From positions 1 through 57,125 of the forward strand of contig JAOPXN010000104.1 of NCBI GenBank assembly GCA_025965155.1: a stretch of DNA of 57,125 nt, read 5' to 3'. Position 1 is the stretch's first letter; the number at the start of each line of letters is the position of its first letter. This DNA is from Propionibacteriaceae bacterium. Lineage in GTDB: Bacteria; Actinomycetota; Actinomycetes; Propionibacteriales; Propionibacteriaceae. Below the pieces are notes generated by a model, which saw only the letters and a program-made list of their open reading frames with translations, did no database searches and was not told the origin of the DNA. Positions 1 through 12,769 of this stretch are shown here, piece by piece. A program made the translations under genes and the position numbers.

Positions 1-97
1 CCAACGACACCACCAACCACCCACGCCGCGGCGCCGCAAACGGCCAGAACCGCCGAAAAATATCCCGGAACGCCACCTCCCGCGGAAACACAAACAC
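1..97 (-). CDS. Possible N-terminus of an ABC-exporter-like membrane protein, cut by the window edge
   Basis: Reading the minus strand from a GTG at 97 gives 32 open codons to the edge, with a motif RDIFRRFWPFAAPRRGWL followed by the start of a hydrophobic stretch. A basic, aromatic amphipathic segment just before the first membrane helix is typical of ABC exporter half-transporters. That family call is inference from about 30 residues. A GGAGAGGG ribosome site (108-115 on the complement) sits 10 bases before the GTG; a TTG at 103 is an alternative start. Too little is present to exclude another membrane protein. Confidence 0.35.
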   Translation of the reverse strand, partial: MFVFPREVAFRDIFRRFWPFAAPRRGWLVVSL

Positions 98-4730: not shown

Positions 4731-5576
4731 CTACCTACGGATGTAGGAGATCAGGCGCAGCATCTCAATGTACAACCAAACCATCGTGACCGTCAGGCCG
4801 AAGGCGCCACGCCACGACTCACGAGCGGGAGCGCCCATCTGGACACCCTTCTCGATGTAGTCGAAGTCGAGCACCAGGTTCAGCACGGCGAGCACGATCG
4901 CAATAGCCGAGATACCCAGGGCCAGCGGGCTGACCGGGCCAACGATGCCACCCCGCAGGCCGGGGCCACCGGTGATGAGGCTGAAGATGAAGTTGGCCAA
5001 CATCAGGGCAGCGAAGGCGATGGTGGAGATGATCACGATCTTCTGGAACTTGGCCGTGACGCGGATGTTGAAGAACTTGTACGCGGCTAGCGTCGCACCA
5101 GCGGCGAAGAAGGTCGCCACCACTGCCTGGGCCACGATTCCGGTGTACTGGGCCTCGAAGACCTTGCTGATCATGCCAATGAAGACGCCCTCAATCGCGG
5201 CGTACGCCAGCACCAGCGGCGGGCTGACCACCCGACGGAAGGAGACGATCATGACGACCACGAAGCCGACCAGACCGGACAAGATCATGCCCGGGAAGTA
5301 CAGGCTCGGCGGGATCAGGTTCCAGGCCAGTGCAGCAGCCAGGACCAGGACAACCATGGTGACCGCTGTCTTGGTGACCACGTCATCGAAGGTCATCCGA
5401 CCTTCGGGCGCCTTGGTGGGGGCTTGACCGTAGGGATCTGTATAGCCCTGCTGGCCGGGATACTGGGCAAAGCCCTGGCCCGGGCCATACTGGGCCGACC
5501 CCCGCTGACCATACTGGGGCGCTGCGGGAGTGAACGCGTCCTGCTTAGAGAGGATCGGGTTCGAACTGCGCAACAT
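4731..5576 (-). CDS. Bax inhibitor-1/YccA-family membrane protein
   Basis: A 281-residue protein with a cytoplasmic N-terminal tail of about 60 residues rich in Gln, Tyr, Gly and Pro (PQYGQRGSAQYGPGQG), then about seven hydrophobic helices and an ending typical of the family (LDFDYIEKGVQMGAP, then YIEMLRLISYIRR). YccA/BI-1 proteins are inner-membrane proteins linked to calcium leak and to protease modulation; the role in actinobacteria is not established. The ATG at 5576 has an ideal AGGAGG nine bases upstream, so a longer form starting at 5603 is rejected. A TAGAAT -10-like element lies at 5625-5630 on the complement. Confidence 0.88.
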   Translation of the reverse strand: MLRSSNPILSKQDAFTPAAPQYGQRGSAQYGPGQGFAQYPGQQGYTDPYGQAPTKAPEGRMTFDDVVTKTAVTMVVLVLAAALAWNLIPPSLYFPGMILSGLVGFVVVMIVSFRRVVSPPLVLAYAAIEGVFIGMISKVFEAQYTGIVAQAVVATFFAAGATLAAYKFFNIRVTAKFQKIVIISTIAFAALMLANFIFSLITGGPGLRGGIVGPVSPLALGISAIAIVLAVLNLVLDFDYIEKGVQMGAPARESWRGAFGLTVTMVWLYIEMLRLISYIRR

Positions 5577-5597
5577 ATGAATGTTCCTCCTCGAAGA

Positions 5598-5616
5598 GCG
5601 CACCCAGGCGGTGCGC
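5598..5616. promoter_or_regulatory. 7-bp inverted repeat between sugar-type operon and Bax inhibitor-like gene
   Basis: GCGCACC / GGTGCGC with a 5-base loop lies downstream of the isomerase stop and immediately upstream of the ribosome site of the next minus-strand gene. It may end the catabolic operon or affect translation of the membrane-protein gene. No T-tract follows, so the role is undecided. Confidence 0.4.
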
Positions 5617-5674
5617 CGGATTACATTCTACGTAACGCCGCAACGGTAGTCGTTTCTTCCGGCCTGGGAATCGG

Positions 5675-6619
5675 CTAAGAAGCGCCTCCGGTTGACCCCA
5701 GATACGGCTCGACCAGCTCGACGTATCGCCGGGCCGAGGTGGCCAGCGCCTGGGCCGGATCGGCTGCCCACAGGTCGGCGTTGAAGATCTCCACTTCGAC
5801 GTCGCCGGCGTAGCCGGCCTGGGCGACGGCGCGGGTGAAAGCGGCGAAGTCGATGTGCCCGTCGCCCATCATGCCTCGCGCCAGCAGTGTGTCGGCCGGC
5901 AGCGGAGTGATCCAGTCGCAGACCTGATAGCTGACGATCCGCTCCCCGGCCCTGGCAATCTGGTCGGTGACGCCTGGCTCCCACCACAGATGAAAGGTGT
6001 CCACGACCACGCCCACGACGGCGTAGTCGAAGTTCTCGGCGATGTCGAGAGCCTGGCCCAGGGTCGACACCACCCCGCGATCGGCGGCGTAGATGGGGTT
6101 CATCGGCTCAATCCCGAGGACAACCCCGTGTTGCTGCGCGTACGGCGCCAGCCGCTCGATAGCACGGACCGCGCGCTCCCGAGCGGCGGCGAGATCCCGG
6201 TCGCCGGCCGGCAGACCGCCGGGAACCAGGACCAGGGTCGCCGCGCCGAGAGCGGCCGCCTCCTCGATCGCAGCCCGGTTGGAGCGGTACGCCGCCTCGG
6301 CCTCCTCGGGGTCGGCGACTGTGAAGAAGCCGCCGCGGCACAGCGACGACACCCGCAACCCTGCCTGCTGGATCCAACCGGCAGCCGTGGCCAACCCGAC
6401 TTCGGCGACGGGTTCCCGCCACAGGCCGATCGAGGAAAGGCCAGCCGTGACTGCTCCGTCGATGGCCTGGCGCAACGACCAGGAGGCGGTGGTCCGCTGG
6501 TTCAGCGAGAACCGGCGCAACCGCTGGTCGCCAGGACCCGGGGTCGGCACGGTGGCCGGCCGGCCGCTCGGTACGTCCACTAGCGCGAGCGGGGCGGAGG
6601 GCGAATCTACGGCGGTCAC
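5675..6619 (-). CDS. Sugar phosphate isomerase/epimerase-type TIM-barrel protein
   Basis: A 314-residue protein with the xylose isomerase-like TIM-barrel pattern: SLNQRTTASWSLRQAID near the start, the GIEPMNP strand and VVVDTFHLWWEPG metal-site region mid-protein, DGHIDFAAFTRAVAQAGY, and VEIFNADLW near the end. Acidic and His residues in these strands typically bind a divalent metal and support keto-aldose isomerisation or epimerisation. The GTG start at 6619 overlaps the TGA of the upstream DUF993 gene (GTGA), indicating translational coupling, so longer in-frame versions are rejected. Third gene of a three-gene operon under the LacI-type operator. Substrate unknown; IolE-like dehydratase chemistry is an alternative. 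Confidence 0.85.
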   Translation of the reverse strand: MTAVDSPSAPLALVDVPSGRPATVPTPGPGDQRLRRFSLNQRTTASWSLRQAIDGAVTAGLSSIGLWREPVAEVGLATAAGWIQQAGLRVSSLCRGGFFTVADPEEAEAAYRSNRAAIEEAAALGAATLVLVPGGLPAGDRDLAAARERAVRAIERLAPYAQQHGVVLGIEPMNPIYAADRGVVSTLGQALDIAENFDYAVVGVVVDTFHLWWEPGVTDQIARAGERIVSYQVCDWITPLPADTLLARGMMGDGHIDFAAFTRAVAQAGYAGDVEVEIFNADLWAADPAQALATSARRYVELVEPYLGSTGGAS

Positions 6620-7776
6620 CGGCTCAGTCCGGCTGTCGTCAGCACCAGCCCGAGCCGGTGGGCGGCCAGCTCGGGATCGGGCAGCAGCCTGGCGTTGTTG
6701 GCGAGCTCGAAGATCCGGGCCAGGTGCACCGGCGAGCGGGCCGCCTGGAGTCCGCCGATCATGGTGAATCCCTCTTGCAGGCCGCTCAGCCACGCCATGA
6801 AGGCAATCCCGGTCTTGTAATAGAACGTCGGCGTCCCGAAGATGTGCCGGGACAGCTCAAGGCTGGGTGCGAGCTCGGTGTCGTACAGCTCGAGGTCGCC
6901 CTGGTCGAGGGCCGACAGCGCCGCCGCCGCGGCGGGGGCGATCGCCGCGAAGGCCCCCAGCAGCGCGTCGGAATGGCAGCGGCCGTCGCCGCGGATCAGC
7001 TCCGGGTAGTTGAAGTCGTCGCCGGTGTAGAGGCGTACGCCTGGCGGGAGGGAGGCGCGCAGGCCGATCTCGTGCTCGGCTGACAGCAGCGACACCTTGA
7101 CCCCGTCCACCTTGTCCGGATGCCTACGCACCAGCTCGAGGAACGTTGCGGTGGCGGTATCGACATCCGTCGAGCCCCAGTACCCGCGCAGCTGCGGGTC
7201 GAAGACCTCACCCAGCCAGTGCAGCACCACCGGCTCGCGAACCTGGCTCAGCACTGCGTCGTAGACCCGCAGATAGTCCTCAGCGCTGCGAGCCACCGCG
7301 GCCAGGTGACGCGATGCCATCACGATCACCTGGGACCCTGCCGCCTCGACGAACTCGACCTGCTCGAGGTAGGCGGCCGTGACATCGTCGATCGTCCCCA
7401 GGTGAGTCCGGTGGTCGGTGCCAGCGCCGGAGGCGATCCGCGCCCCGTACTCCTTGGCCTGGTCGGCGCTGCGGGTGATCAGCTCCTGGACCGCCGGCCA
7501 GTCGATACCCATGTTGCGCTGCGCGGTATCCATGGCCTCGGCCACCCCGAGGCCATAGCGGAACAAATGCCGGCGGAAGGCCAAGGTGGCGTCCCAGTCC
7601 ACGGCGGCCGGGGCTCCGGGCACGTTCTCGCCCCAGGGATCGGCCACCACGTGCGCCGCGGCGAAGGCGACCCGACAGGTGAAGGGCTGAGGGTGTTCGG
7701 CCCAGATCCTCGGTTCCTGGAGCTTGATCCGGCGCCACTCCCCACCGGGAGTCGGGATATCCACCGCGGTGTTCAC
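6616..7776 (-). CDS. DUF993 protein, dihydrodipicolinate synthase-like TIM barrel
   Basis: A 386-residue protein matching the DUF993 family, distantly related to class I (Schiff base) aldolases such as dihydrodipicolinate synthase. Recognisable stretches are VVLHWLGEVFDPQLRGYWG, DKVDGVKVSLLSAEHEIGLR (with a candidate Schiff-base Lys in GVKVS) and LYTGDDFNYPELI. The GTG start at 7776 overlaps the TGA of the upstream oxidoreductase gene by the GTGA arrangement, and its own end overlaps the isomerase the same way. This is a tightly coupled operon. Biochemistry of DUF993 is not established to my knowledge. Retro-aldol cleavage of a keto-sugar acid is inference from fold and neighbours. Confidence 0.85.
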   Translation of the reverse strand: MNTAVDIPTPGGEWRRIKLQEPRIWAEHPQPFTCRVAFAAAHVVADPWGENVPGAPAAVDWDATLAFRRHLFRYGLGVAEAMDTAQRNMGIDWPAVQELITRSADQAKEYGARIASGAGTDHRTHLGTIDDVTAAYLEQVEFVEAAGSQVIVMASRHLAAVARSAEDYLRVYDAVLSQVREPVVLHWLGEVFDPQLRGYWGSTDVDTATATFLELVRRHPDKVDGVKVSLLSAEHEIGLRASLPPGVRLYTGDDFNYPELIRGDGRCHSDALLGAFAAIAPAAAAALSALDQGDLELYDTELAPSLELSRHIFGTPTFYYKTGIAFMAWLSGLQEGFTMIGGLQAARSPVHLARIFELANNARLLPDPELAAHRLGLVLTTAGLSR

Positions 7777-8924
7777 CCTCTCACCCGCTCGATCTCGACC
7801 CGGCGTCCCTCGCCGGAGGAACGGAGCCCGGCGTCAACGAGCTGGAGGCCACGGACACCGGCGGCCAGGTCGTACCGATGCTGGCGGCCCGCGTCGACAT
7901 CGGCGAGGAACTGTTCCCACTGCGCTCGGAAGCCGTTGCCGAACTCGGCGTTGTCCGGCACCTGCTCCCACTGGGCGCGGAAGTCGTCCTCGGTGGGGAG
8001 ATCTGGGTTCCAGACCGGCTTCGGGGTACGCACCCGGTGCTGGATCCGGCAGCCGAACAGCCCGGCCACCGCCGAGCCGTGGGTACCGTCCACCTGGAAC
8101 TCGACCAGCTCGCCGCGGTCCACGCGGACCGCCCAGGATGAGTTGATCTGGGCGATCACTCCACCGTCCAGCTCGAAGATGGCGTACGCAGCGTCGTCGG
8201 CGGTGGCGGCGTACTTGCGGCCCTGCTCGTCCCAGCGCTCCGGGATGTGGGTGACTGCCTTCGCCATCACTGCGTCGACCCGCCCGAACAGGTTCTCCAG
8301 GACGTAGTTCCAGTGGCAGAACATGTCCAGCACCATGCCGCCTCCGTCCTCAGCCCGGTAGTTCCAGCTCGGTCGCTGGGCCGGCTCCAGATCGCCCTCG
8401 AACACCCAGTAGCCGAACTCGCCGCGGACCGACAGGATCCGGCCGAAGAAGCCGGAGTCGATCAGCCGTTTCAGCTTCAGCAGGCCCGGCAGATACAGCT
8501 TGTCGTGCACCACGCCGTGGATGATCCCTGCCTCACGGGCCGCGTCCACCAGCTCGATCCCGTCGGACACCGACTCGGCGATCGGCTTCTCGGTATAGAT
8601 ATGCAGGCCGCGGTCGATGGCCTTCAAGATGGCCTTCTTGCGTTCCGAGGTCACCTGGGCGTCAAAGTAGACCGAGGCGGTAGGGTCCGCGAGCGCCGAG
8701 TCCAGGTCCGTGGTGAAGTCAGCCACGTTGTGCTGGGCCGCCAGGCGGGCGAGCTTCTCCTCGCTGCGACCGACCAGGATCGGTTCCACCTGGATCCTGT
8801 CCCCGTCGGGCAGCAACACCCCGCCGTCGTCCCGGATGGCCAGGATTGAGCGCACCAGGTGCTGGCGGTAGCCCATGCGTCCCGTAACGCCATTCATGAT
8901 GATCCGGATCTTGCGCTCCGCCAT
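7773..8924 (-). CDS. Gfo/Idh/MocA-family oxidoreductase
   Basis: A 383-residue NAD(P)-dependent dehydrogenase. The N-terminal Rossmann domain begins KIRIIMNGVTGRMGYRQHL, with GVTGRMG in place of the usual GxGxxG, and carries the family EKP motif in HIYTEKPIAES with the catalytic Lys. The C-terminal alpha/beta domain includes GGGMVLDMFCHWNYVLENL, with the conserved Asp and His expected for substrate binding. The ATG at 8924 was chosen because GAAGAGG lies just upstream; an earlier ATG at 8954 would fall next to the operator. First gene of the minus operon, so it probably catalyses the first oxidation of the sugar or polyol. Confidence 0.9.
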   Translation of the reverse strand: MAERKIRIIMNGVTGRMGYRQHLVRSILAIRDDGGVLLPDGDRIQVEPILVGRSEEKLARLAAQHNVADFTTDLDSALADPTASVYFDAQVTSERKKAILKAIDRGLHIYTEKPIAESVSDGIELVDAAREAGIIHGVVHDKLYLPGLLKLKRLIDSGFFGRILSVRGEFGYWVFEGDLEPAQRPSWNYRAEDGGGMVLDMFCHWNYVLENLFGRVDAVMAKAVTHIPERWDEQGRKYAATADDAAYAIFELDGGVIAQINSSWAVRVDRGELVEFQVDGTHGSAVAGLFGCRIQHRVRTPKPVWNPDLPTEDDFRAQWEQVPDNAEFGNGFRAQWEQFLADVDAGRQHRYDLAAGVRGLQLVDAGLRSSGEGRRVEIERVRG

Positions 8925-8957
8925 GTCGCACCTCTTCGGGTTCCGAGTAGTCAAATA

Positions 8958-8983
8958 CGTAAGCGCTTTCGCAAGCGCTTACG
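8958..8983. promoter_or_regulatory. LacI-type operator (perfect 11-bp arms)
   Basis: CGTAAGCGCTT and its exact reverse complement AAGCGCTTACG flank a 4-base spacer TCGC. Each arm includes the AAGCGCTT core typical of LacI/CcpA-family sites. The element lies in the divergent region between the oxidoreductase operon (start 8924) and the LacI gene (start 9075), close enough to control both. This is the expected autoregulatory site; the symmetry is observed, the binding partner inferred. Confidence 0.8.
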
Positions 8984-9074
8984 CTACTGTAAGGTGAAAT
9001 CCGATCGGCGGCAAGTCCCAGCCGGCCGGTGCGGCACCCGCCGCCAGAAATGGTCAGTTCACGAGGAGCCGCTG

Positions 9075-10148
9075 GTGCCGAAGTCTCGCGCAGCCCCGCG
9101 GCTGCTCGACGTCGCCGAGGCAGCCGGGGTCTCGCTGGCCACCGCCTCCCGCTCGCTCAGCGGGCAGAGTGGCGTCAGCGAGGCAGTCGCCCAGCGCGTG
9201 CGCGGCGTTGCTCAGTCGTTGGGATACGTGGCGAACGTGCACGCGCGGACGTTGGCCGGCGGTCTCACCTCGATGATCGGCCTGATCGTGCACGAGATCG
9301 ATGATCCGTACTTCTCCGAGATCGCCAGCGGCGTGGTGCATGCGGCTACCAGCCACCAGCGTCTGGTGCAGATCTCCCACTCGGGCCGGGATCCGGAGCA
9401 GGAGCTGCGGCAGATCCGCGCGCTGATCGCGAGCCGGGTGGATGCCATCATCATCGCCGGCTCGGGCTACACCGACCCGACGGCACAGCAGGAGTCCAGG
9501 CTGCTGCTGGCCCGGTACGCCGACAGCGGCGGCCGAGTCGCGGTGATCGGCCGGCACGAGCTGGCGGTCGACGCCGTACTGCCGGCCAACAAGGAGGCCG
9601 GCGCCGCAATTGCCGAACACCTGATCTCCCTGGGCCACCGCCGGATCGCGATCGCGGCAGGTACCGAAGGCCTGACCACCGTCGAGGACCGCCTGACCGG
9701 TCTTGCTGATGGCTTCGGCCAGGCTCACCCGCCGGTGACAGCGACAGCAGTCCGATCCGACTTCACCCGCGAAGGCGGCCGTTTGGCCGCCGAGCAGATC
9801 ATCAGCGACCATCCCGAGGTGACGGCGATCATCGCGCTCAACGATGCGATGGCTATCGGGGTCCTCGCTGCCCTGCGCAGCCATCGGATCGCGGTCCCGG
9901 ACCAGATGTCGGTGGTCGGGTTCGACGACGTGTCGGTGGCGGAGGCGCTTGCCCCGAGCCTGACCACCGTACGGCTTCCGATGGCGACCATGGGCCAGCT
10001 GGCCCTCGAGATGACCCTGAAACCGCCGGCCGCCGAACCGCGCCGCAAGGCCACCAGCCATCAGCTGATGGTGCGTGACTCCACTGCTGCTCCCCGGAGC
10101 CTCGGCGAGGAGACTCCCCTGCTGCGTGACAACGAGAGGAATGTTTGA
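9075..10148 (+). CDS. LacI-family transcriptional regulator
   Basis: A 357-residue regulator. The N-terminal helix-turn-helix and hinge read LLDVAEAAGVSLATASRSLS; a periplasmic-binding-protein-like effector domain follows (IGLIVHEIDDPYFSEIA; RRIAIAAG; VVGFDDVSVAEALAPSLTTV). The GTG at 9075 is preceded by GAGGAG at 9063-9068, six bases away, so upstream in-frame extensions through the operator are rejected. The last ~30 residues are a non-family extension. The stop overlaps the start of the aldolase gene (TGATG), placing both in one transcript. The effector is probably an intermediate of the pathway encoded by the divergent operon. Confidence 0.92.
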   Translation: MPKSRAAPRLLDVAEAAGVSLATASRSLSGQSGVSEAVAQRVRGVAQSLGYVANVHARTLAGGLTSMIGLIVHEIDDPYFSEIASGVVHAATSHQRLVQISHSGRDPEQELRQIRALIASRVDAIIIAGSGYTDPTAQQESRLLLARYADSGGRVAVIGRHELAVDAVLPANKEAGAAIAEHLISLGHRRIAIAAGTEGLTTVEDRLTGLADGFGQAHPPVTATAVRSDFTREGGRLAAEQIISDHPEVTAIIALNDAMAIGVLAALRSHRIAVPDQMSVVGFDDVSVAEALAPSLTTVRLPMATMGQLALEMTLKPPAAEPRRKATSHQLMVRDSTAAPRSLGEETPLLRDNERNV

Positions 10149-10930
10149 TGATGTCTGCCCTCCGGCGCCAGTTCGACTCCGGCGACCCGACCGTCAACGG
10201 CTGGCTCTCCGCCGACAGCCCGTACCTGGCGGAGGTCATGTCCTGGGCGGGGTACAACTCGGTGACCGTGGACGTGCAGCATGGGATGTTCGATCTCGGC
10301 GGGGCCATCCACCTCATCCAAGCCGTCAGCGCAGGGCCGGCCGTGCCGCTGGCCCGGGTGCCTCGGCTGGACGCGGCACTCATCGGCAAGCTGCTCGACG
10401 CCGGCGCGGAAGGGATCATCTGCCCAGCCATCGATGACGCAGCGCAGGCGGCCGCCTTCGTCGCGATGTGCGCGTATCCGCCGGTCGGCGTCCGCAGCTT
10501 TGGCCCGGCCCGCGCGAATGTGGCCGGTCTCACCGACTACGTCGAGCAGGCCGACGTAATGACCTGGGCGATGATCGAGTCGCGACCGGGTCTTCACCAC
10601 CTCCGCGAGATCGTGGCCACGCCGGGACTGGACGGCGTGTACGTGGGACCGAACGACCTGGCCCTCGCCCTCGGGGAGGTGGCCGGCTCCACCCGTCCGG
10701 GGCCGCTGGTGGACGCCGCTCTTGACCAGATCGTCGCAGCCGCCAACGACGCCGGCATCCTGGCGGGCGTCTTCTGCCCTAACGGTGAGGTGGCGCGGGA
10801 GATGGCCGAACGCGGCTTCCGGTTGGTCACGCCCGGCAACGACATGGCCCTGCTGCGCGCCGCCGTTCAGCGGGAGATCTCCGCTACCCGGGGACTCCCA
10901 TCCGTGGTGCGACAGTCGAGCGGGTACTAG
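10148..10930 (+). CDS. HpcH/HpaI-family aldolase
   Basis: A 260-residue class II (metal-dependent) pyruvate aldolase-like protein. Family motifs are VDVQHGMFDL (general-base His), LARVPRLD, DAGAEGIICPAIDD, a PVGVRSFGPAR arginine loop, MIESRPGL (metal-ligand Glu) and VYVGPNDLALALG (metal-ligand Asp). The family cleaves 2-keto-3-deoxy acids or 4-hydroxy-2-ketoacids into pyruvate and an aldehyde. The ATG at 10148 shares a base with the lacI stop, with GAGAGGA seven bases upstream; ATG 10151 is the alternative. With the divergent oxidoreductase, DUF993 and isomerase genes it suggests degradation of a sugar acid or keto-sugar ending in aldol cleavage. Confidence 0.88.
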   Translation: MMSALRRQFDSGDPTVNGWLSADSPYLAEVMSWAGYNSVTVDVQHGMFDLGGAIHLIQAVSAGPAVPLARVPRLDAALIGKLLDAGAEGIICPAIDDAAQAAAFVAMCAYPPVGVRSFGPARANVAGLTDYVEQADVMTWAMIESRPGLHHLREIVATPGLDGVYVGPNDLALALGEVAGSTRPGPLVDAALDQIVAAANDAGILAGVFCPNGEVAREMAERGFRLVTPGNDMALLRAAVQREISATRGLPSVVRQSSGY

Positions 10931-10964
10931 GGGGCCGTCTGCCTGCCGACTGCACCGGCCGGGG

Positions 10965-11037
10965 TGCCCCCGATGGGATTCGAACCCATACTGGAGCGGG
11001 TTTAAGCCGCCTGCCTCTGCCATTGGGCTACGGGGGC
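10965..11037 (-). tRNA. tRNA with UAA (Leu) anticodon, short variable loop
   Basis: The minus strand folds as a cloverleaf: acceptor GCCCCCG/CGGGGGC with discriminator A, anticodon arm GGCGG-CTTAAAC-CCGCT giving anticodon UAA, and T-arm ATGGG-TTCGAAT-CCCAT. CCA is not encoded. The variable loop is only about five bases, whereas leucine tRNAs normally carry a long type II variable arm. So the codon read is clear from the anticodon, but the amino acid charged is less certain. It lies alone between convergent genes. Confidence 0.8.
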
Positions 11038-11080
11038 CGGCCGACGCGGCTGGCATCGAGATACTAGTGCCCGGCCCGGT

Positions 11081-12769
11081 TCAGCGGGGGGTCGGCGTCG
11101 CCGTCGGTGAGGCACCGCTGAGTTCGACTCGAGTCTCCGACGGCAGGGCCGACAGGTCTCCGGTCTGGATCCGTTCGTCCACCACGACGTCGGCGTTGGG
11201 CAGGAAGTGCACCGGCTGTACCCCGGTGAACAGTCCGGTGGCATTGTCCCGGAAGTAGAAGTAGACGTCCGCGCTGGTCAGCGGCGGCGAGAAGGGCGTG
11301 CTGAACGATGTGATCATTGGCTGTTTCACACCGCCAGCGGTTCCCTGCTGCATGCCGACCGTCCAGGACCCGTCGTCATGCCTGACGACCGTCGGGCCCT
11401 GCTGTGAGTGGAAGTGGCCCCACAGCACCAGCCGGGCCGGGATGTTGGGGGTGTTCATGATCACGACGGACGCCGCGGGCTGATGGACCAAGATCACGTC
11501 CGTCTTCTTGGCTGCGGCGGTGTCCACCATCCGCTGCCCGAGCTGCTCGTTGGTCTCGGGCCTGTCGGTCAGCCGTTCGATGCTGAAGGGGACCTGCCGT
11601 TCGGGATCGTCGTCACCGACCACGGCCAGACCATCGGAGTCGACCACGTCGCCGTCCAAGGCGACCATGCCGGCGTTCTTCATCTGGGTCTCGGTGACGT
11701 CGGAGTCATGGTTGCCCGTGCTGACCAGGAATGGCGCATCCCCGGCAATGCGGGCCTCGCGGTTGATGCAGCCCCGTTCGGCTGCAGTCCCGTTGACGGT
11801 GTCGTCCCCGGAGTCGAGGATCTGGGCCGGTTCGGTAATCGCCGCCAGACGCTTGATCAGCTCGGTCGTCGCCTGGTTACAGTGCAGGTCGCTGAACCCG
11901 AGGTACATCGTCTCGCCCTCGGCCGCCCGCGGGAGCTCGCTGAACTGCAGCAGCATCTGCTCGGCGGCGGAGTCGATGTAGCGCTGGACCGCCTTCTGCT
12001 GCCGATCGCTCAGCACGGCGATGCCCTTGATGCCGCGGTCCAGCAGGTCCGACAGCACGAAGCTATCCACACTCAGCCCCTCAAACTGCGTGCCGTCAGC
12101 CACCGCGACCGGGATGCGGACCGGATGCTGCCGGTGTACGGGCGCGAGAATCGACCCGACGGCGAGCACCACAACGGTTGCGTAGACCACGGCCGTGCGG
12201 CGCAGGGAGGTGTGCCGGACAATGGCCGGTGACAGCACCTGCCGGCGCAGCACCCAGACGGCAAAGGCCAACATCAAGACCACCTCGGCCCGCATCGATT
12301 CAGCCACCATGTCGGCGACCAGCCGGTCGACGATGCCGGCCACCGCCTCCTCAGGGTCGGCGAACAGCGAGGTATAGGCGGTCAGTGTCTCCTCGGAGAA
12401 GAACCCGGTGCCCGCGGTCCCGCCGACACCCCCGACGGTGACCTTCAGGCCGACCGGGGCTGACGGACTGGGCAGGTATGCGTGGCCTAGTGGCCCGAGG
12501 TCGATCTCGACCTCGCCGTCGTAGCTGGAGGCGAACTCGACTGCGTGCGGCCCAAGATAGTCCTGGACGCTGGCATGGCCGATCCCCCACGCCAGAGCGA
12601 GGGGGGCCGCCAGTCCTGCTGCGAGCAGGGTGAGCCCGAGGCTCCGGAGCAGCCGTGGGATCAGGTCTGCCGAGGTCATCCGTGACCACCGCGGAACGCT
12701 GCGACCGAAGAGGCGCTGGAGCGCGCCGGCCCACAGCGGGCGCTGCGGCGAGGTGGGTGGCGCGCTCAT
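11081..12769 (-). CDS. Membrane-anchored metallophosphoesterase
   Basis: A 562-residue protein. The N-terminal ~235 residues contain at least three hydrophobic helices (LGLTLLAAGLAAPLALAWGI; VVLMLAFAVWVL; VVYATVVVLAVGSILAP). The C-terminal part is a calcineurin-like phosphoesterase with all metal motifs in order: FSDLHCN (DxH), DSGDD (GDxx), STGNHDS (GNHD), LVHQP and GHFHSQQG (GHxH). The active domain is predicted outside the membrane or at its face; the substrate is unknown. It reads from the same strand as def, starting 13 bases after def ends. A Pro/Thr-rich C-terminus (TATPTPR) ends the protein. Confidence 0.85.
   Translation of the reverse strand: MSAPPTSPQRPLWAGALQRLFGRSVPRWSRMTSADLIPRLLRSLGLTLLAAGLAAPLALAWGIGHASVQDYLGPHAVEFASSYDGEVEIDLGPLGHAYLPSPSAPVGLKVTVGGVGGTAGTGFFSEETLTAYTSLFADPEEAVAGIVDRLVADMVAESMRAEVVLMLAFAVWVLRRQVLSPAIVRHTSLRRTAVVYATVVVLAVGSILAPVHRQHPVRIPVAVADGTQFEGLSVDSFVLSDLLDRGIKGIAVLSDRQQKAVQRYIDSAAEQMLLQFSELPRAAEGETMYLGFSDLHCNQATTELIKRLAAITEPAQILDSGDDTVNGTAAERGCINREARIAGDAPFLVSTGNHDSDVTETQMKNAGMVALDGDVVDSDGLAVVGDDDPERQVPFSIERLTDRPETNEQLGQRMVDTAAAKKTDVILVHQPAASVVIMNTPNIPARLVLWGHFHSQQGPTVVRHDDGSWTVGMQQGTAGGVKQPMITSFSTPFSPPLTSADVYFYFRDNATGLFTGVQPVHFLPNADVVVDERIQTGDLSALPSETRVELSGASPTATPTPR

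Follow-up and report, generated by a model that had tools for sequence, protein, structure and literature searches.

A 57,125-nucleotide contig of a Propionibacteriaceae bacterium (JAOPXN010000104.1; the whole stretch is called the window here) encodes a DUF993 protein (PF06187) between a Gfo/Idh-type dehydrogenase (Gfo) and a TIM-barrel protein (TIM), in an operon that faces lacI and an HpcH/HpaI-family aldolase gene. The Gfo-DUF993-TIM triad is a real, widespread three-enzyme module. Our preferred interpretation, in which we place somewhat more trust than doubt, is that it is a LacI-repressed module that oxidizes and cleaves a sugar acid or keto-sugar, with DUF993 acting as a Schiff-base lyase. 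The locus comprises:

5675-6619, minus strand: TIM-barrel protein, xylose isomerase-like (PF01261, by Pfam), whose GTG start overlaps the DUF993 stop
6616-7776, minus strand: DUF993 protein (PF06187), apparently a divergent enzyme of the N-acetylneuraminate lyase/dihydrodipicolinate synthase (NAL/DHDPS) fold with an invariant K227 (Pfam and structure comparison)
7773-8924, minus strand: Gfo/Idh/MocA-type dehydrogenase, first gene of the operon (Pfam; nearest solved relative 3oqb)
8958-8983, no strand: putative double LacI operator, cores at 8961-8968 and 8973-8980, 12 bp apart, 24/26 palindromic
8986-9014, minus strand: promoter-like TTGCCG-17-TACAGT of the minus operon (-35 at 9009-9014, -10 at 8986-8991), just upstream of the operator
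9075-10148, plus strand: LacI-family regulator (Pfam PF00356 and PF13377)
10148-10930, plus strand: HpcH/HpaI-family aldolase (Pfam PF03328), probably accessory to the module

Neighbors were counted by tblastn (at least 65 bits) at 91 DUF993 loci besides the window: 28 from a genome collection, 20 from the window's family (taken from 22 other family genomes with a DUF993 match), 23 from plasmids (hand-chosen from 147 records, with annotated ones preferred), and 20 from its class (picked for spread among the 120 class genomes, out of 394, that had a DUF993 match). Two of these loci (L007 and L055) are apparently one contig, and no other DUF993 pair in the 90-row set exceeds 97% identity. Gfo lies within 400 bp of DUF993 at 74 of the 91 loci (26/28 collection, 17/20 family, 12/23 plasmid, and 19/20 class), and TIM does so at 80 (25/28, 17/20, 18/23, and 20/20, respectively); contig ends account for some misses (Gfo in L011; TIM in L007/L055 and L023). 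The recurrence of both partners implies that Gfo-DUF993-TIM is a real module, and it answers in the affirmative the question, raised with the initial annotation of this locus, of whether DUF993 adjoins these partners elsewhere. lacI was found within 8 kb of DUF993 at 57 of the 91 loci (16/28, 19/20, 5/23, and 17/20, in the same order). DUF993 itself occurs in 30% (120/394) of the sampled genomes of the window's class, in 23/147 of its family, and in 147 plasmid records, which are mostly rhizobial.

At loci that lack Gfo, a short-chain dehydrogenase/reductase (SDR) gene may directly precede DUF993; examples come from Sinorhizobium M103, S. meliloti p_1, Caballeronia, Paraburkholderia 22B1P, and Rhizobium anhuiense. 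These SDR-type loci often carry CoA-transferase and enoyl-CoA hydratase genes, or acyl-CoA dehydrogenase and electron transfer flavoprotein (ETF) genes. A second cluster type (L075, L077, L078, L081, L103, and L111), in which DUF993 is paired with a CoA-transferase and often accompanied by enoyl-CoA hydratase, acyl-CoA dehydrogenase/ETF, and glycerate kinase, suggests a CoA-dependent branch.

All five genes of the window lie where the initial annotation had placed them, and Pfam confirmed their families (E-values: DUF993 PF06187, 8.7e-176; AP_endonuc_2 PF01261, 5.1e-39; GFO_IDH_MocA_C3, 2.2e-26; LacI PF00356, 1.2e-12; HpcH_HpaI PF03328, 2e-31). Each neighboring pair of the minus-strand trio overlaps by GTGA, and lacI and the aldolase gene overlap by TGATG on the plus strand, also as annotated. 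The match of DUF993 to PF06187 spans residues 6-383 at 584.9 bits (cut-off 24), and that of the aldolase to PF03328 reaches 109.5 bits (cut-off 25). The LacI protein has both domains of its family, the N-terminal helix-turn-helix (PF00356) and the sugar-binding domain (PF13377). The closest solved relatives are 7vpf, 3ju2, and 3qc0 for TIM and 3oqb (E 2.8e-147) for Gfo, whose EKP motif is kept in at least 97% of 42 aligned sequences.

Structure comparison showed that DUF993, with 4dnh as its solved relative, is a (beta/alpha)8 barrel of the NAL/DHDPS-superfamily type. K227, on model strand 223-228, aligns with the Schiff-base lysine K161 on strand 6 of DapA and is invariant in 90/90 DUF993 sequences; moreover, the GDD motif of DUF993 aligned with that of DapA. 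The fold, strand-6 lysine, and GDD motif are shared with the superfamily members DapA, MosA, YagE, and KdgD. DUF993 therefore looks like a divergent Schiff-base lyase, with imine chemistry suggested by the fold and K227, and the earlier proposal of an undescribed aldolase or lyase is likely in view of the NAL-superfamily fold and the invariant lysine. Unlike DapA (292 residues), DUF993 (386 residues) lacks a GTTGE-like motif: G[TSGA][TNS]GE is found in 0/90 DUF993 sequences. In the DHDPS family proper, this loop holds the 2-keto-acid carboxylate, and Y133 of DapA is the catalytic tyrosine of that family. A weak profile alignment puts R87-N88-M89-G90 of DUF993 on DapA G43-G46, and His186 stands at the place of DapA Y133 in 90/90 sequences. 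The DUF993 protein of the window had no match to PF00701, the DHDPS family proper, at E ≤ 0.01. A further proposal, to which we assign slightly less than even chances, is that DUF993, within the class I lyase fold, represents a new type of reaction: it would cleave or eliminate keto-sugars or keto-sugar acids through a Schiff base without the carboxylate loop. In this proposal, His186 and Arg87 are candidates to take the place of Tyr133 and GTTGE, and the enzyme would define an undescribed oxidize-isomerize-cleave pathway.

Judging from conserved site layout, the module is very probably repressed by LacI. The element at 8958-8983, first described as a perfect palindrome, matches its reverse complement at 24 of 26 bases and consists instead of two adjacent LacI-type cores, each AAGCGCTT (8961-8968 and 8973-8980). 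Of 41 upstream regions, counting the window and entering L022 twice, 34 have the core AANCGNTT no more than 320 bp upstream of their first gene, compared to 2.4% of mononucleotide-shuffled regions. In 31 of these 34 operator-bearing regions, a TTGnnn-16..19-TAnnnT pair is located no more than 55 bp upstream of the core; such a pair occurs in 0.3% of shuffled 57-bp stretches. The promoter-like pair of the window, at 9014-8986, has the operator just downstream, so that the operator would cover the transcription start; a stricter consensus promoter scan listed no promoter in 5500-11100. Two cores spaced exactly 12 bp apart occur in 12/41 regions (the window, L004, L005, L006, L008, L010, L012, L013, L019, L022 on its transporter side, L028, and L061), and the LacI proteins of these regions, where found, are 53-64% identical to that of the window; no lacI was seen within the available stretch of L005 and L006. 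The original designation of a LacI-controlled catabolic locus is supported.

A scan of this genome for the double site, with up to three mismatches allowed, gave this locus only; as a control, the operator pattern read backwards was found at five places per strand. A wider regulon was rejected on this result, which covers the double operator, single cores not having been searched genome-wide. The literature matches listed for tandem LacI operators contained nothing on this site.

A sugar acid or keto-sugar acid that is degraded to C3 acids fits most of the neighbor clues and is the most likely substrate, as judged from gene content. Some relatives have glycerate kinase, enzymes resembling KdgD, and transporters for organic acids, which favors this choice. 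Glycerate kinase lies within 8 kb of DUF993 at 19 of the 91 loci (4/28 collection, 1/20 family, 11/23 plasmid, and 3/20 class) and recurs in actinobacteria and in alpha- and gammaproteobacteria; three genes for it lie elsewhere in the genome to which the window belongs. Two proteins are encoded directly behind TIM in L120. One belongs to the KdgD subfamily (398 bits against a cut-off of 278) and scores below the KdgD equivalog cut-off; the other resembles talarate/galactarate dehydratase and also scores below its cut-off. L122 and L124 carry homologues, as does Palleronia L083 at a distance of 2.5 kb from TIM. In the galactarate/glucarate lower pathway (GarL-GarR-GarK, KdgD), to which the window's HpcH aldolase and the glycerate kinase and KdgD-like enzymes of its relatives bear likeness, the resemblance does not extend to the conserved part here, which is Gfo-DUF993-TIM, and the window aldolase falls far under the GarL cut-off.

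Tripartite tricarboxylate or TRAP transporters stand beside several triads, and a Liv-type ABC transporter followed by secreted GSDH-domain proteins stands beside the triad in one actinobacterial group. The earlier statement that no transporter is encoded here holds for this locus; in a number of relatives, transporters adjoin the triad. A query with the Liv binding protein of L013 found no close relative in the window's own genome, with two matches of 23-27% identity; other transporter types were not searched. Deducing the substrate from a recurrent transporter was abandoned, as the types are too varied (Liv, tripartite tricarboxylate, TRAP, NMT1-type, CUT1, CUT2, and MFS). In L013 (12122-15223), L004, L005, L008, L010, L019, L022, L028, and L130, genes for a secreted GSDH and Laminin_G protein and for a 233-residue secreted protein come after the triad, or in L022 after the transporter. 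The 233-residue protein of L013 had no Pfam or NCBIfam match and by eye resembles a 3-keto-disaccharide-hydrolase-type domain. An enolase-like gene precedes Gfo at L074 (6345-7733), L080, L108, and L112; the L074 protein, annotated as enolase, matched nothing in Pfam or NCBIfam at the chosen thresholds, and its PDB matches were only at E 0.6.

Several observations weigh against our preferred interpretation. Compared by sequence profile alone, DUF993 matches DapA weakly (17% probability and E 0.0014 for one template), and still more weakly with shallower alignments, and the kinship therefore rests mainly on structure. By the pattern used, L056 and L057 (LacI 55% identical) have a single core and 7 of the 41 regions have none; L053 (LacI 58% identical), with its cores 13 bp apart, speaks like L056 and L057 against a strict link between LacI and spacing. 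No glycerate kinase lies within 8 kb at 72 of the 91 loci, and the variety of transporters between loci fits several substrates as well as one. Finally, ThuA, the secreted GSDH proteins, and a levoglucosan-dehydrogenase-like Gfo (62.3 bits against the levoglucosan dehydrogenase NCBIfam equivalog, below its cut-off of 650) also fit 3-keto-glycoside chemistry (PMC10628242, PMC7676230, and PMC10066097, as far as their examined parts go).

The main rival is accordingly a 3-keto-glycoside or anhydrosugar pathway, as in levoglucosan or phlorizin deglycosylation, in which Gfo would oxidize C3 and TIM or DUF993 would beta-eliminate or hydrate; we consider it unlikely, at about one chance in four. The levoglucosan (LgdA-B1-B2-C) and Agrobacterium OGE operons likewise combine Gfo/Idh-type oxidoreductases with sugar phosphate isomerase/epimerase TIM barrels, and differ in having two TIM barrels and a final reductase, with no DUF993 seen in the parts of the publications examined. 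The published pathways finish with a reduction to free sugar; what recurs around the triad is instead glycerate kinase, enzymes resembling KdgD, and transporters for organic acids. In addition, the main text of PMC10628242 does not contain "DUF" and that of PMC10066097 does not contain "dihydrodipicolinate" (PMC7676230 was searched for neither). No OGE/LgdB beta-eliminase is named among the listed solved-structure matches of the TIM protein, an absence that excludes nothing. An inositol-type cyclitol pathway, in which Gfo would make an inosose and TIM and DUF993 would dehydrate it and open the ring, is improbable: no iolB, C, D, or J is annotated in the relatives' gene tables checked, which are incomplete, and C3-acid enzymes recur instead.

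The HpcH/HpaI aldolase appears to be an accessory add-on in a variable place of this strain's lineage, outside the conserved module. It was found within 8 kb of DUF993 at 0 of the 91 other loci. The 147 family genomes contained no close orthologue (best match outside its own genome 43% identical), 396 phylum genomes gave two non-self matches at E ≤ 1e-60 (45-46% identical), and the best of the plasmid matches listed was 48% identical. The triad has one common site in the window and in L002, L003, and L058, flanked by YccA-like and cystathionine beta-synthase genes (by eye) on one side and tRNA-Leu(taa) on the other. Gfo and tRNA-Leu are separated by 2.0 kb in the window, where lacI and the aldolase gene lie between them, and by 5.2 kb in L058; in L002 and L003 the gap is less than 0.2 kb. 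The variable stretch of the window is 8925-11037; that of L058 has open reading frames that are Gfo- and TIM-like by eye. Other genes stand behind lacI elsewhere, namely glycerate kinase in four Nocardioides loci (L008, L013, L019, and L028; L019 protein Pfam-tested) and a ThuA-type gene in L056, L057, and L061 (L056 protein Pfam-tested).

The initial annotation had joined the five genes in one conserved pathway with an aldolase step, and the counts, the lack of a close orthologue, and the other genes behind lacI do not support this. That the aldolase is nevertheless a needed step, yielding pyruvate and an aldehyde, would fit the TGATG-overlapping lacI and aldolase genes facing the triad across the operator, and GarL- and HpaI-type NCBIfam matches of the aldolase, both below cut-off (GarL equivalog 123.6 bits, cut-off 406.75), would fit the C3 theme. 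The absence of the aldolase within 8 kb of DUF993 at all 91 other loci and the variability of the stretch from triad to tRNA-Leu make such a five-gene pathway quite improbable. As the aldolase is not conserved with the triad, the products first proposed, pyruvate plus an aldehyde, are reduced to a possible add-on route in this strain only.

In the oxidize-and-cleave module that we favor, LacI bound to the two adjacent cores just downstream of the -10 box would block the Gfo-DUF993-TIM operon when inducer is absent. Gfo/Idh would oxidize one hydroxyl group of a polyhydroxy substrate, giving a ketone, as its family suggests, and TIM, of the metal-dependent epimerase type, would epimerize or isomerize the keto compound. 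K227 of DUF993 may then form a Schiff base with the ketone, followed by cleavage or elimination. The substrate, most likely a sugar acid or keto-sugar acid, would yield C3 acids at the glycerate level. The HpcH aldolase behind lacI, as a lineage add-on, may handle an intermediate or a second substrate.

Open-licence PubMed Central contained no match for DUF993, PF06187, or 4dnh, one unrelated paper for 7vpf, 3qc0, 3ju2, and 3oqb together, and no fitting match for a deoxyribonate-type pathway. For TIM and DUF993, S. meliloti provides solved relatives whose locus tags differ by two, SMc04130 (3qc0, 3ju2) and SMc04132 (4dnh); as to function, their structure titles say nothing beyond "sugar isomerase" and "hypothetical protein". 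PMC12542648 has SMc04132/33/35/38 in a table, and PMC11387232 includes SMc04134 in its network lists. Every module enzyme has a solved relative without a substrate in its name (4dnh; 3oqb; 3ju2/3qc0/7vpf), and the conserved partners, invariant residues, and operator make the "unknown function" of DUF993 open to direct tests. If true, the reading of DUF993 as a novel lyase would define a pathway in 30% of the sampled genomes of the class.
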